A stretch of 64,000 nt of DNA from Luteitalea pratensis (GTDB lineage: Bacteria; Acidobacteriota; Vicinamibacteria; Vicinamibacterales; Vicinamibacteraceae). The stretch is from assembly GCF_001618865.1 (NCBI RefSeq), contig NZ_CP015136.1, positions 4,933,001 through 4,997,000 of the forward strand. Direction: 5' to 3'. Below, one piece after another: positions 6,387 to 12,165 of this stretch; positions within the stretch are counted from its first letter, which is position 1; each line of letters starts with the position of its first letter. The notes beneath the pieces are model-generated. The model ran no database searches. It was not told the origin of the DNA and was given only the letters and a program-made list of their open reading frames with translations. A program made the position numbers and the translations under genes.

Positions 6387-6857
6387 TCAGGGCACAGCGC
6401 TTCCCAGTGTCCGGACGATCTCGTACTCGGCGCGAGTGACGGGCTGCACGGACAGCCGACTTCCCTTCTGGATCACCATCATGTCCTCGAGACCGGGAGT
6501 CTTCTTCAACGTCTCCAGCGGAATCGTTGCGGCGAATCGCGCGACGAACCCGATGTCCACCATGAACCACCGTGGCGCATCGGCAGAGCTGCCTTCGTCG
6601 AAATACTCGTGTCCGGCGGTCCAGGCAGTGTGGTCGGGATAACCAGCGCGGACAACCTCGGCCAGCCCGGTGACACCCGAAGGGTCAGCATTGGAGGCAT
6701 AGAACAACACTTTGTCGCCGACCTGCATGCCGTCGCGCATGAAGTTCCGGGCTTGGTAGTTCCGAACGCCTTCCCAGCTCGCACGGCCGTCACGATCAAG
6801 ATCGTCGATGGTGTAGGCGGCGGGCTCGCACTTCATCAACCAATACCGTATGGCCAT
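6387..6857 (-). CDS. EVE domain-containing protein
   Basis: 156-aa EVE (PUA-like fold) protein, the family of human THYN1. EVE domains are thought to read modified bases in DNA or RNA; the substrate of bacterial stand-alone members is not established. Family marks are YWLMKCEP at the N-terminus, WEGVRNYQARNFMR, GDKVLFYASN and the C-terminal MVIQKGSRLSVQPVT block. The ATG at 6857 has GGAGG 9 nt upstream and gives the usual N-terminus; the longer frame from 6923 adds residues without similarity. Confidence 0.9.
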   Translation of the reverse strand: MAIRYWLMKCEPAAYTIDDLDRDGRASWEGVRNYQARNFMRDGMQVGDKVLFYASNADPSGVTGLAEVVRAGYPDHTAWTAGHEYFDEGSSADAPRWFMVDIGFVARFAATIPLETLKKTPGLEDMMVIQKGSRLSVQPVTRAEYEIVRTLGSAVP

Positions 6858-6978
6858 CGGGTACTTTTCCTCCATTGAAGATTTATCAGCCACAACTGCA
6901 CGTCGATGGGGGCAATTCGCCATATCGCGAGCACCCGTTATGAAATAGACCGTTACCCATCAGCTGGCTTGGCATTCC

Positions 6979-7009
6979 AAAGTGTAATTTCTACCTCGAT
7001 TTTTTGACA
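6979..7009 (+). promoter_or_regulatory. Conserved 31-nt element upstream of metalloprotease gene 1
   Basis: This stretch matches 26 of 31 positions, without gaps, with 10289-10319 upstream of the paralogous protease. Its core is GTAATTT, then TAC, TCG, a T run and GACA. It lies 107 nt before the ATG at 7117. Weak similarity extends on both sides (AGCTGG about 17 nt upstream, GTTATGAA farther up). The embedded TTGACA at 7004-7009 could be a -35 box, but no matching -10 follows. A shared operator, promoter or RNA leader is possible. Confidence 0.55.
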
Positions 7010-7116
7010 TGACGCATGGTCGTGACGTGAACGCCTTGTGTCATCGGAACGACTTCATGGCTCAGCATGTGCATAGCAGCCCGACAGCGTGTCTTTTTAC
7101 CGCACACGCGAGCAAA

Positions 7117-10089
7117 ATGTTCCGATACATCACCCTCCCAGCACTCGTCGTCACGCTTGCCGCCACTTTCATCCCCGCTCAGGTCGTCGCCCAAACAGTC
7201 CCTGACCTTCTGATTGCGCCGCGCGCACCCGCGGCTCCCAGACGGAACGGACCTGCGCGCCGCCTGCGAAAGGCGGGCATCAACCTGGGCGCGTTGGACT
7301 CCGCCACGGTCCGGCTTCAGCTCTTCGATGACGTGGCGCTGACGGTCAGTCGCACCAGGGAATATCGCCCGGCCAGCGACAAGCTGGTCTGGATCGGTCA
7401 CGGCCCGGATGGATCCCAGGCCGTGCTGAGCGTGGTTCGCGGCGTGGTGACCGGCACGGTGTTTTTCGACAACCGCACCTTCGAGGTCACGATCGACCCG
7501 GATGGCGAATATACCGTCGCCGAACTCGACCCGGCCGCGTTCCCGCCCGACGACCCGATCGACCCTGCGCAGCTACAGATTCTTGACGCACCGGTCGACG
7601 GAGCGGCCGACCCGCCAATCGCCAACGCGGCGGCGAGCGGGGCGGTACAGGTCGACGCGATGATCGTCTGGACGCCGAACGCCGAGGCCGCCGCGGGCGG
7701 CCGCGCGGCCATGGAGAGCCTCGCTCTCGCCTCGGTCGCCAACGCCAACCTGGTGTACGCCAACAGCGGCATCAGCGCCCAGCTCAATCTCGTGTACGCC
7801 GCGCCGGTGTCGTTCACGGAGACGCCCACGTCGATCTCCACCGACCTGAGCGCCCTCCGCGGTACCAGCGACGGCTTCATGGACCAGGTGCACACGCTGC
7901 GCACGCAATACGGCGCCGACGTGGTGACCTTGATCGGCGAGGGCTATCGCGCGAGCGCTTGCGGCATCGCCTACCTGATGTCCACGGTGAGTACGTCTTT
8001 TGCGAGTAACGCATTCAATGTCGTCGACCGCACCTGTGCGGTGGGCAATCTGTCATACGCGCACGAAAACGGTCACAACCAGGGGCTCAATCACGACGCG
8101 GCCAACGCCAGCGGCACGGCGGCCTATTCGTACGCGTTTGGTTACCAGAGTCCGTCTGGGCTTTTCCGGACGGTGATGTCGTATGGCAGCGCGGTGCGGA
8201 TACCGTTCCTGTCCAGTCCGACCGTGTTCTACAGCGGCCAGCCGACCGGCACCTCGAACGAGAACAACGCCAGAGCGCTCACCAACACCATCTCCACGGT
8301 GGCTGCGTTCAAGGCAACCACAAGTGCCCCGGCGCCGCCGACTTGCACGTACGCGGTGTCCACGACGTCAATCACCTTTCCGGCTGCGGGCGGGTCGCAG
8401 TCCGTGTCGGTCACCGCGCCGTCAGGCTGCAGCTGGCAGGCGGCCGGCGATGCAGCCGCCAGCTGGGTCAGCCTCAGCACGTCCGGTGGATCGGGCAGCG
8501 GGACGGTGACGGTCAGCGCGGCAGCCAACGCCGGCGCGGCGCGCAGCGCCATCGTGACCATCGCCGGCCAGGCGGTCGCGATGGGCGAAGCGGCGGCCGT
8601 CACACCGCCAGCGGGTGGAGGCGTCAACGTCGCGGCGGCCAGTGCGGGCGCCACGGCATCGGCGTCGACGACCTATCCCGGCTACGGCCCCGCCGGAGCG
8701 ATCAACGGCGACCGTCGAGGCGCCAACTGGGGCGCGGGCGCCGGCTGGAACGACGCCACGCCGGGCAGCTTCCCCGACTGGCTGCAGGTCGATTTCGCGG
8801 GCACCAGGACCATCAGCGAAGTCCGCCTCTTCAGCGTCCAGGACAACTACAGCAATCCGGTCGAGCCGACCACCACGCAGACCTTCAGCCTCTACGGCAT
8901 CACCAGCTTCACCGTGCAGTACTGGGATGGCGCGCAGTGGCTGACCGTCCCCGGCGGCGCCATCATCGGCAACCAGCACGTCTGGCGCACGGTCACGTTC
9001 CCGGCCATCAGTACCTCGCGGATCCGGATCGTGATCACCGGCGCGAGCGACAGCTACAGCCGCCTCACCGAGGTCGAGGCCTATGAGACCGCCGCGCCAG
9101 TGGTTCCGTCGGGCAGCAATGTCGCGGCGGCCAGTGCGGGCGCCACGGCATCGGCGTCGACGACCTATCCCGGCTACGGCCCCGCCGGAGCGATCAACGG
9201 CGACCGTCGAGGCGCCAACTGGGGCGCGGGCGCCGGCTGGAACGACGCTTCGGCCGACAGCTACCCCGACTGGCTACAGATCAACTTCGCCGGAGCCAAG
9301 ACGATCAGTGAAGTCCGCATCTTCACCGTCCAGGACAACTACACCGCCCCCGTAGAGCCAACCCCCACCCAGACATTCTCGTCCTACGGTGTCACGGGCT
9401 TCACGGTGCAGTACTGGGACGGGGCACAATGGGTGACCCCTCCGGGCGGCACGATCATCGGCAATCGCAACGTCTGGCGCACGGTCACCTTCCCGGCTGT
9501 CACCACCGCCCATATCCGCGTCCTGGTCACGGATGCCCTCGGCGCCTACAGCCGCCTCACCGAAGTCGAAGCCTATGAGAGTGGCGCGGCGCCGGCCCCG
9601 GCGCCCGCACCCGCGGGGTCGCTCAACGTCGCCGCCGCCAGTGCCGGCGCCAATGTCTCGGCCTCCACCACCTACAGCAGTGCCTTCAGCCCGGCCGGGG
9701 CCATCAATGGCGATCGCAAGGGCAGCAACTGGGGCGCGGGCGGCGGCTGGAACGACGCCTCGGCCAGCAGCTACCCAGACTGGCTGCAGGTTGACTTCGC
9801 CGGAGCCAAGACGATCAGTGAAGTCCGCATCTTCACCGTCCAGGACAACTACACGGCCCCCGTAGAGCCAACCCCCACCCAGACGTTCTCGTCCTACGGT
9901 GTCACGGGCTTCACGGTGCAGTACTGGGACGGGGCACAATGGGTGACCCCTCCGGGCGGCACGATCATCGGCAATCGCAACGTCTGGCGCACGGTCACCT
10001 TCCCGGCTGTCACCACCGCCCATATCCGCGTCCTGGTCACCGATGCCCTCGGCGCCTACAGCCGCCTCACTGAAGTCGAAGCCTACTGA
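7117..10089 (+). CDS. Secreted reprolysin-like metalloprotease with BACON and three discoidin (F5/8 C) domains
   Basis: Predicted exported zinc protease, 990 aa. A signal peptide (MFRYITLPALVVTLAATF.. to AQ, ~27 residues) is followed by a propeptide-like region and a metzincin catalytic domain with HENGHNQGLNHD (H316, E317, H320, H326) and Met-turn VMSYG (M354). A BACON domain follows (~410-490), then three tandem F5/8 type C/discoidin domains starting near 505, 669 and 836, which probably bind glycans or polymers. Repeats 1-2 share 128 identical bases and repeats 2-3 about 290 nearly identical bases. ATG 7117 was chosen because it begins the signal peptide; the open frame from 7009 has no signal at its start. 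Substrate unknown. Confidence 0.88.
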   Translation: MFRYITLPALVVTLAATFIPAQVVAQTVPDLLIAPRAPAAPRRNGPARRLRKAGINLGALDSATVRLQLFDDVALTVSRTREYRPASDKLVWIGHGPDGSQAVLSVVRGVVTGTVFFDNRTFEVTIDPDGEYTVAELDPAAFPPDDPIDPAQLQILDAPVDGAADPPIANAAASGAVQVDAMIVWTPNAEAAAGGRAAMESLALASVANANLVYANSGISAQLNLVYAAPVSFTETPTSISTDLSALRGTSDGFMDQVHTLRTQYGADVVTLIGEGYRASACGIAYLMSTVSTSFASNAFNVVDRTCAVGNLSYAHENGHNQGLNHDAANASGTAAYSYAFGYQSPSGLFRTVMSYGSAVRIPFLSSPTVFYSGQPTGTSNENNARALTNTISTVAAFKATTSAPAPPTCTYAVSTTSITFPAAGGSQSVSVTAPSGCSWQAAGDAAASWVSLSTSGGSGSGTVTVSAAANAGAARSAIVTIAGQAVAMGEAAAVTPPAGGGVNVAAASAGATASASTTYPGYGPAGAINGDRRGANWGAGAGWNDATPGSFPDWLQVDFAGTRTISEVRLFSVQDNYSNPVEPTTTQTFSLYGITSFTVQYWDGAQWLTVPGGAIIGNQHVWRTVTFPAISTSRIRIVITGASDSYSRLTEVEAYETAAPVVPSGSNVAAASAGATASASTTYPGYGPAGAINGDRRGANWGAGAGWNDASADSYPDWLQINFAGAKTISEVRIFTVQDNYTAPVEPTPTQTFSSYGVTGFTVQYWDGAQWVTPPGGTIIGNRNVWRTVTFPAVTTAHIRVLVTDALGAYSRLTEVEAYESGAAPAPAPAPAGSLNVAAASAGANVSASTTYSSAFSPAGAINGDRKGSNWGAGGGWNDASASSYPDWLQVDFAGAKTISEVRIFTVQDNYTAPVEPTPTQTFSSYGVTGFTVQYWDGAQWVTPPGGTIIGNRNVWRTVTFPAVTTAHIRVLVTDALGAYSRLTEVEAY
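8629..10086 (+). repeat. Three tandem discoidin-encoding repeats with mosaic identity
   Basis: Repeat units begin at 8629, 9121 and about 9628. Bases 8629-8756 are identical to 9121-9248 (offset 492). Bases 9284-9573 match 9794-10083 (offset 510) with about four substitutions. The middle unit is therefore a chimera of the first unit's 5' part and the third unit's 3' part, which points to intragenic recombination or gene conversion. Confidence 0.9.
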
Positions 10090-10120
10090 ACTGGTAGCCC
10101 TTCCATCAGGTCCGTAACAC

Positions 10121-10167
10121 GCCAGGGCCGCGTGCTCACACAAACGTAATGAGCACGCGGCCCTGGC
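10121..10167 (+). terminator. Strong hairpin downstream of metalloprotease gene 1
   Basis: A perfect 18-bp inverted repeat (10121-10138 and 10150-10167) with an 11-nt loop starts 32 nt after the stop codon. No T tract follows, so it is either a factor-assisted terminator or an mRNA 3' stabiliser. Confidence 0.75.
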
Positions 10168-10288
10168 CTACTCTTGACGGCACCATCTATAGTTATCAGC
10201 GCAGTAATGCCTCTGAATGCCTAAATGACACATGTTTAAAGCCAATTGTGTCTATCACAATGTTATGAAGAGCTGGAGTCAAGTGCGT

Positions 10289-10319
10289 AAAGCGTAATTT
10301 ATACGTCGCTTTTTCGACA
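10289..10319 (+). promoter_or_regulatory. Conserved 31-nt element upstream of metalloprotease gene 2
   Basis: Partner of the element at 6979-7009 (26/31 identical). It lies 124 nt before the ATG at 10444 in otherwise AT-richer DNA. Between it and the start, a second weakly conserved stretch (GCATG..CATAG..) also aligns with the leader of gene 1. The rest of the 10168-10443 gap holds no gene that I can support. Confidence 0.55.
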
Positions 10320-10443
10320 GCCCACTCGCTCGACTGACCATGCAATTTCTGTAAGTTGTTGAAAACACAAGAGCGAAAGATTGGATCGGCGCATGCACAT
10401 AGGGCAAGGCAAGCGTGCCTCCCCGCGTGCACACAACAAGCCC

Positions 10444-11988
10444 ATGTCCAAACTATTCGCCCTCTCTCTAGTCCTCGGCATCGTTGCCACCACTGCTGCG
10501 GTCCCTGCCGCTGCGCAAACCGTTCCTGACCTGCTCGTGGCGCCCCAGGCGTCATCGGCGGCCAGTCGCCGCGACGTCCCGGCGCGCCGCGTGCGCAAGG
10601 CGCGGCTCAACCCTCTGGCGCTCGATTCAGCCACCATGCGCCTGCACCTGTTCGACGACGTGCAGCCGACGATGAAGCGGAAGAAGCTGAGTCGCCCGTC
10701 GTCAGACACGATGGTCTGGGTGGGCGATAGTGAGAACGGTGCACAAGCGGTGCTGGCCGTGGTGCGTGGCGTGCTCACCGGCACCGTCTTCGCCGACAGC
10801 CGCACGTTCGAGATCAGCATCGATCCCGACGGGCAGTACAGCGTCGCCGAACTGGATCCCGGCGCCTTCCCCACCGACGATCCCGTCGTCGATGATGTGC
10901 GGTTCGAGATTCTCAATGTGCCGGACGGCTTCGTCGAGGACGCTGCGAGCGTGGCCGCGCCGACGGTCGCGTCAGTCCTCAGCGGAACGCCGGTGCAGAT
11001 AGACGTGATGATCGTCTGGACGCCGCGGACCGAAGCCGCAGCAGGCGGTCAGGCGGCCATGGAAAGCCTGGCCCTCGCGTCGGTCGAGAACGCGAACCTG
11101 GTCTACGCCAACAGCGGCGTGAACGCGCAGCTCAGGCTGGTGTATGGGGCCAAGGTGAACTGGGTCGAGACCGACATCACCAACGACCTGTATGCGGTGC
11201 GCGGTACCGGTGATGGCAAGCTCGAGGAAGTCCACACGCTGCGCACGCAGTACGGCGCCGACGTGGTGAGCCTGATTGGCGAAGGCTATGTCTCCGCGGG
11301 GGCCTGCGGCATCGGCAGTCTGATGAGCACGGTGAGCACCTCGTTTGCCAGCAATGCCTTCAACGTCGTCGACCGCACCTGCGCGGTCGGCAATCTGTCG
11401 TACGCACACGAGGTCGGCCACAACGAGGGCCTGCACCACGACCCGGCCAACGCGAGCAGCACGCCGTCAGCTCCTTACGCATACGGGTACCAGGATCCAT
11501 CGGGCTTCTTCCGCACCGTGATGTCGTACGGCGGCGCGACGCGTATCCCCTACCTGTCGAGCCCGGCCAATCAGTACAACGGCATCGTGACCGGTACGCC
11601 GAGCCAGGACAACGTCCGCGCCCTGAACGCGACGATCGGCACGGTCGCTGCCTTCAAGAGCACCAGCGGCGGAACCACCACGGCGCCACCGCCGGCGCCC
11701 ACGCCTACCCCATGCACCTACAGCGTCTCGACGACCTCGCTGACCTTCCCGTCAGCGGGAGGCTCCAAGAGCGTGACGGTGACGGCACCGAGCGGCTGCA
11801 GCTGGAGTACTGCCAACGACTCCGCCAGCACGTGGGTGAACCTGAATACCGCCGGCGGGTCGGGCAGCGGCTCGGTGACGGTCACGGCCGCGGCCAACAC
11901 CGGCTCGGCGCGGAGCGCCACGGTGACGATTGCTGGAAAGACGGTCGCGGTCAGTGAGAGTGCCGTGAAGACCAGGGGCCGTAAGTAG
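10444..11988 (+). CDS. Secreted reprolysin-like metalloprotease with C-terminal BACON domain
   Basis: Paralogue of the protease upstream, 514 aa, lacking the discoidin tail. The signal peptide MSKLFALSLVLGIVATTAA..AQ is followed by the same TVPDLL mature start as gene 1, a propeptide-like region, and a metzincin domain with HEVGHNEGLHHD (H322, E323, H326, H332) and Met-turn VMSYG (M360). A Pro/Thr linker and one BACON domain (~415-505) follow, and it ends in basic residues. ATG 10444 starts the signal peptide. The shared architecture, order and upstream element point to a tandem duplication followed by gain or loss of the discoidin part. Confidence 0.88.
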   Translation: MSKLFALSLVLGIVATTAAVPAAAQTVPDLLVAPQASSAASRRDVPARRVRKARLNPLALDSATMRLHLFDDVQPTMKRKKLSRPSSDTMVWVGDSENGAQAVLAVVRGVLTGTVFADSRTFEISIDPDGQYSVAELDPGAFPTDDPVVDDVRFEILNVPDGFVEDAASVAAPTVASVLSGTPVQIDVMIVWTPRTEAAAGGQAAMESLALASVENANLVYANSGVNAQLRLVYGAKVNWVETDITNDLYAVRGTGDGKLEEVHTLRTQYGADVVSLIGEGYVSAGACGIGSLMSTVSTSFASNAFNVVDRTCAVGNLSYAHEVGHNEGLHHDPANASSTPSAPYAYGYQDPSGFFRTVMSYGGATRIPYLSSPANQYNGIVTGTPSQDNVRALNATIGTVAAFKSTSGGTTTAPPPAPTPTPCTYSVSTTSLTFPSAGGSKSVTVTAPSGCSWSTANDSASTWVNLNTAGGSGSGSVTVTAAANTGSARSATVTIAGKTVAVSESAVKTRGRK

Positions 11989-12062: not shown

Positions 12063-12104
12063 GTCGTTTCGGGGCCGATAGGATCGCCCTGCGGACCGGT
12101 GCCC

Positions 12105-12165
12105 GGCGCCCGGTTCCCGGCTCCCGATTCCCGGCTCCCGTTGCCCGGTTCCCGGTTCCCGTTCC
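12105..12165. repeat. Tandem CCCGGNT-type 7-8 bp repeats
   Basis: Imperfect tandem units such as CCCGGTT and CCCGGCT fill the gap between two convergent genes. On the other strand they read CGGGAAC/CGGGAGC, the same type as at 24732-24800, 33105-33160 and 37264-37310. Confidence 0.6.

Follow-up and report, generated by a model that had tools for sequence, protein, structure and literature searches.

A conserved upstream element and a sigma-54-like promoter island shared by secreted protease genes of Luteitalea pratensis and related species

Two tandem genes for secreted reprolysin-like metalloproteases of Luteitalea pratensis are each preceded by a 31-nt element that is real, under selection and very probably regulatory. 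The arrangement recurs before related protease genes in the genus and before one other gene of this genome, which encodes a secreted beta-helix protein. We consider it probable, on balance, that the element is an enhancer for an NtrC-type activator, that a second conserved island downstream of it is a sigma-54 promoter and that the three genes constitute a small co-regulated set. To our knowledge, the promoters and regulons of soil Acidobacteriota have hardly been mapped, and a defined candidate enhancer, promoter and set of three target genes make it possible to test how these bacteria control the degradation of extracellular protein.

A shared element upstream of two tandem protease genes

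The window, i.e. the whole stretch of 64,000 nucleotides that was analyzed, contains the following features around the two genes:

6387..6923, minus strand: EVE-domain gene (Pfam assignment for the window gene), divergent neighbour of gene 1
6979..7009, plus strand: element 1, candidate enhancer (upstream activator site) of protease gene 1, matching element 2 at 26 of 31 positions and kept before related genes of other species; inner parts GTAA at 6984-6987 and, in this copy, an imperfect dyad with arms at 6995-6998 and 7005-7008
7117..10089, plus strand: gene 1, secreted reprolysin-like metalloprotease of 990 aa with BACON and three F5/8 type C domains (Pfam) and a signal-peptide-like start judged from sequence
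10289..10319, plus strand: element 2, candidate enhancer of protease gene 2, dyad GTCG-N6-CGAC
10444..11988, plus strand: gene 2, secreted reprolysin-like metalloprotease of 514 aa with a BACON domain (Pfam), 67% identical to gene 1

Both proteases retain the zinc site HExxHxxGxxHD (HENGHNQGLNHD and HEVGHNEGLHHD). An initial sequence-only reading had reported the match of 26 out of 31 positions and placed it more than 100 nt before each start, and both statements were borne out. No 31-mer comparison of the two upstream regions scored higher, while the best matches in dinucleotide shuffles of the upstream pairs (n = 1000) ranged from 16 to 23 positions, and the elements begin 138 nt before the ATG of gene 1 (7117) and 155 nt before that of gene 2 (10444). 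A pattern made of the shared positions matched twice in the window and in none of 100 shuffles. With up to three mismatches allowed, the element pattern occurred at two sites in the whole genome of 7,480,314 bases and at none in the reversed control. The majority sequence of the dyad across the element copies is AAAGTGTAATTTnTnCGTCGGTTTTTCGACA. An ATG-started frame runs from 7009 through gene 1, yet the start that aligns across all five such protease genes identified in the genus is the later ATG.

Conservation within the genus

Among 193 genomes of the class, the element pattern with up to three mismatches matched in two, the window genome (G000) and G187 of the same genus, in which it stands 155 nt before a related protease gene. 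A shorter version of the pattern also recovered G189 (156 nt before its protease gene) and G188, whose contig breaks off 42 nt past the beginning of the element. Since an EVE-domain-like gene is divergent there as in the window, the G188 site represents the same locus. The second protease gene of G189 (G189b) is preceded, at 155 nt from its start, by a degenerate element with a 1-nt insertion. Proteases of this kind were present in three of the five genomes of the genus (two in G000, one in G187 and two in G189), and the element precedes each of these five genes, one of the copies being the degenerate one. G190 exhibited neither such a protease nor a strong element, and inspection of the DNA upstream of the most similar protease outside the genus (G036) revealed no element. 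Judged by eye, an EVE-like gene adjoins the element in G187, G188 and at the first gene of G189 as well; the EVE gene was nevertheless rejected as the common target, as element 2, the second G189 gene and the beta-helix gene have other upstream neighbours.

Identity at four-fold degenerate sites ranged over 43-55% among these protease genes, compared with 39-46% predicted under saturation; between the genes of the window it was 51% versus 39%. Because these sites are near saturation, a match of 84% in non-coding DNA argues for selection, and the kept function that had been proposed for the element is thus well supported by its presence before related proteases of other species. In the protein tree the nearer relative of gene 2 was the G187 gene rather than gene 1 (moderate support, 85/90), and the two protease copies may therefore have split before the species did.

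A second conserved island resembling a sigma-54 promoter

The DNA between element and start had been described as mostly diverged, which overlooked a second conserved island (7057-7074 and 10381-10398). The features concerned are:

7057..7074, plus strand: candidate sigma-54 promoter of gene 1, ATGGCTCAGCATGTGCAT (GG-N10-GC), 9 of 13 consensus letters, predicted transcription start at ~7084
7083..7093, plus strand: stretch at the predicted start of gene 1, GACAGCGTGTC, found likewise in two of the four remaining protease leaders and as variants in the others (five-leader alignments)
10381..10398, plus strand: candidate sigma-54 promoter of gene 2, TTGGATCGGCGCATGCAC, 10 of 13 consensus letters, predicted transcription start at ~10408
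10408..10419, plus strand: stretch at the predicted start of gene 2, GGCAAGCGTGCC, counterpart of GACAGCGTGTC (five-leader alignments)

All patterns of two 3-mers separated by a gap of 0-20 were listed exhaustively between element and ATG in six leaders, those of the five proteases and that of the beta-helix gene. The only patterns present in all six were the overlapping TGG-N9-TGC and TGG-N10-GCA, and none of 300 shuffled sets had any pattern in common; that five of the six leaders are homologous counts against the sigma-54 reading, and TGG-N10-GC had been seen by eye ahead of this exhaustive listing. A GG and a GC 10 nt apart, the -24/-12 core of sigma-54 promoters, thus occur in every one of the six leaders. 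The TGG lies 59-62 nt before the ATG in the five protease genes and 70 nt before it in the beta-helix gene, while the distances from the element start to the base before TGG were 78, 81, 92, 92, 93 and 93 nt. The short and long spacing classes differ by 11-15 bp, which is not clearly a matter of whole helical turns.

The full sigma-54 consensus is YTGGCACGNNNNTTGCW, and the site in each of the six leaders agrees with 9-10 of its 13 letters. PMC12316311 gives the form TGGCACN5-7TTGCT. The leaders of G187 and G189b each hold another GG-N10-GC site with a score of 9, and the core pattern is frequent in DNA as rich in GC as this, with 0.46 occurrences per kb on each strand. As the sites are weak and the core pattern is common, the assignment to sigma-54 rests on conservation rather than on the strength of the match. 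Transcription starts, predicted by counting 12 nt from the GC, fall on the further conserved stretch (GACAGCGTGTC, GGCAAGCGTGCC). The centre of the dyad would lie ~82-98 bp before these starts; a common range for such sites is 80-150 bp. PMC7057263 places the upstream activator site ~100-150 bp before the promoter region, and relative to this value the dyad would be somewhat closer.

A third gene with the same arrangement

Whether the motif also precedes other secreted-protein genes had been raised as a check, and one such gene was found in this genome. A covariance model of the element (R1), for which the protease loci alone served as input, gave a weak match (E 3.3) at genome position 2750259, where the sequence reads exactly TGTAA-N6-CGTCG-N6-CGACG, and TTGGCCCTTCTCGTGCAT stands 81 nt after the start of this element. 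The gene starts with an ATG at genome position 2750414, with an extra in-frame ATG 30 nt earlier, and encodes a secreted protein of 908 aa, in which a right-handed beta-helix is combined with three domains of F5/8 type C.

For ranking this site, the third gene was omitted from the element and promoter matrices, and 911,003 bases (12% of the genome) were scanned; the stretch with the third gene was chosen for holding it, the neighbourhoods of the known loci and of rpoN were likewise chosen, and the other stretches were taken without regard to content. The element of the third gene ranked third of all sites in these bases behind the two protease elements, though only just (17.3 bits, with the next site at 16.3), while its joint score for element and promoter was 29.8 versus 22.8 for the next independent site. 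The chance of its promoter score in the allowed window was ~0.0014, and the core turned up in that window in 53 of 5000 simple shuffles.

The leader of the third gene shares exact matches of just 7-8 nt at best with the two window leaders. In contrast, the C-terminal F5/8 type C repeats of protease 1 (window 8625-10085) and of the beta-helix gene (G000:2751698-2753140) have DNA identities of 90.6% over 956 nt and of 93.5% over 459 nt. Repeats this similar, behind leaders in which no match exceeds 8 nt, point to gene conversion or an exchange of domains between secreted proteins in recent times. No element-like match was found upstream of the third protein with F5/8 domains in this genome (7340781) or of a G188 protein with such a domain.

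Proposed mechanism and alternative readings

In the mechanism that we propose, an NtrC-type bacterial enhancer-binding protein would bind the 31-nt element as its upstream activator site and loop over the intervening DNA to sigma-54 RNA polymerase on the -24/-12 promoter (7057-7074; 10381-10398). ATP hydrolysis would then open the promoter, transcription would begin ~33-36 nt before the ATG, and both proteases as well as the beta-helix gene would be switched on together. RpoN is encoded once in each of the seven genomes searched (Sigma54_DBD over the cut-off), and seven GAFTGA-like loops in a matching ATPase context were detected, by motif only, in the 911,003 bases (12% of the genome) scanned. 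Genes for a GAFTGA-type activator were absent from the window and from the flanking stretches analyzed at the loci in G000, G187 and G189, with the exception of one located ~25 kb from the second protease gene of G189.

Operator, promoter and leader had all been named as possible functions of the element. An activator site fits best, and since the promoter appears as a separate sigma-54-like island downstream, the element would lie upstream of the transcript. The element could instead be a sigma-70-type promoter with GTGTAATTT as its -10 box, in which case the dyad would be a repressor operator over the start and the mRNA leader ~135 nt long. This would suit the TAAnnT hexamer, which is kept in six of the seven element copies, and the dyad spacing, fixed in six of seven, but no sigma-70-like site was found in either window leader and the common TGG-N10-GC island is left without explanation, so that we regard this reading as unlikely. 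Both islands might also be sites of ordinary transcription factors, with a promoter of another, unrecognised type (e.g. for an ECF sigma factor). The sites are short, their match to sigma-54 is partial and promoters of this bacterial class have been little studied; however, out of all the bipartite patterns listed, the common one is the sigma-54 core, and this possibility too seems improbable to us.

A structured 5' leader RNA, either riboswitch-like or forming a stabilising hairpin, would agree with dyad arms that are able to pair and with an element-to-ATG distance of 152-156 nt in five of the six genes (138 in the other). None of the five hairpin pairs was changed on both sides, however, and pairing was no better than in shuffles. 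The consensus fold of the whole leader was weak, at -4.86 kcal/mol with an unfavourable covariation term; of the 19 pairs predicted for it, three were changed on both sides in one sequence, and no Rfam family reached threshold. With consensus folding, covariance models and pair counts all failing to support a conserved RNA structure, a leader function of this kind appears very unlikely. That the element is a functionless leftover of a recent tandem duplication is less credible still. The genes are indeed tandem paralogues with 64.7% identity over the aligned protease part, but a recent, uniformly similar duplication is at odds with the nearly saturated synonymous sites and with the recurrence of the element in other species and upstream of an unrelated gene. 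A translated N-terminal extension was rejected as well, as an in-frame GTG or ATG is present at the island in four of the five proteases and not in the fifth, and the conserved blocks, by eye, ignore codons.

Under the enhancer and sigma-54 promoter reading, the co-regulation of the two proteases that had been suggested from the first is the natural interpretation, although it is one that we infer from the shared arrangement. Going further, we tentatively suggest a sigma-54 regulon of secreted enzymes in this acidobacterial genus, governed by an activator that would use a new operator (GTAA-N7-GTC-N8-GAC), that joins reprolysin-like proteases with a beta-helix protein in a co-ordinated attack on an extracellular target. 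Such a co-ordinated programme is suggested by the C-terminal F5/8 type C attachment domains that protease 1 and the beta-helix protein have in common.

Relation to known systems

The kind of system is well known, while the regulon, operator and activator appear to be new. As in NtrC-family/sigma-54 systems, a GG-N10-GC core is preceded by a dyad at a distance close to that usual for looping, and the genome has RpoN and activator-type ATPase motifs. On the other hand, the match to the -24/-12 consensus is partial, the dyad AAAGTGTAATTTnTnCGTCGGTTTTTCGACA is not assigned to a known activator and the regulation is predicted from sequence. According to the abstract of Francke et al. 2011 (PMC3162934), sigma-54 is predicted to control the bacterial exterior, with which target genes for exported proteins agree, whereas the emphasis there is on exopolysaccharides, flagella, lipids, lipoproteins and peptidoglycan. 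The terms 'Acidobacteri', 'Solibacter' and 'secreted' are absent from its main text as available, and 'Acidobacteri' is absent from that of PMC12316311. The available text of PMC5900883 deals with extracellular peptidases in Acidobacteria, and the term 'sigma' is absent from its main text. Among the papers retrieved from an open library on sigma-54 or RpoN together with the phylum name, none was on this topic, judging by title and abstract opening.

Further motif searches and minor observations

A strict pattern combining element and core matched three times in this genome and five times in the five genomes of the genus, with no match in the reversed control; it misses the degenerate G189 copy and the G188 copy at the contig end. 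In the 188 genomes of the class outside the genus, the eight matches compared with 18 in the control amounted to background. Patterns of the half-element or dyad with up to two mismatches gave about twice the matches of the reversed control (55 versus 27 in seven genomes; at least 155 versus at least 77), and with so many matches these relaxed scans cannot separate single real sites. Three exact dyad matches were among those listed, at the G187 protease, the third gene and G187 contig 205, the last of which was discarded as it has no promoter core at the right distance.

Of the 337 candidates that a first look at this genome gave, model R1 scored only 150, and weak members may therefore be missing. 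Its matches in G190, G191 and G192 and at 5078819 of this genome were weak, did not show the arrangement of element and core and were rejected. A model of the island near the start (R2) matched at 1582942 (E 3.7e-5), a false positive that overlaps the end of a coding frame. The exact pattern of island and downstream sequence (GACAGCGTGTC...GTGCACAC), from which both window copies differ, had no match in this genome.

Several other observations were made along the way. An element-like site in G189 (C1:2611944-2611984, E 0.08), read on the other strand, lies upstream of a gene for a secreted DUF5719 protein and is followed by CAGGCGCGCGACTTGCA, which is sigma-54-like with 11 of 13 letters and has AGG instead of TGG; the site could be an inverted enhancer. 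In the leader of the second G189 protease gene (L049, ~1461-1540), another GTGTAA stands downstream of the degenerate element and is itself followed by a perfect inverted repeat, GGACGCG...CGCGTCC; these may be tandem activator sites. Adjoining the third F5/8-domain protein of this genome is a cluster of small proteins with signal-peptide-like starts (G000:7338500-7342500), at least one of which ends in a VPEPTVMALLGLGLFSAGLARRRK tail that we take to resemble PEP-CTERM sorting signals. Downstream of protease 2, the window contains a tandem array of ~10 copies of the 7-base unit CCGGTTC (12096-12165).
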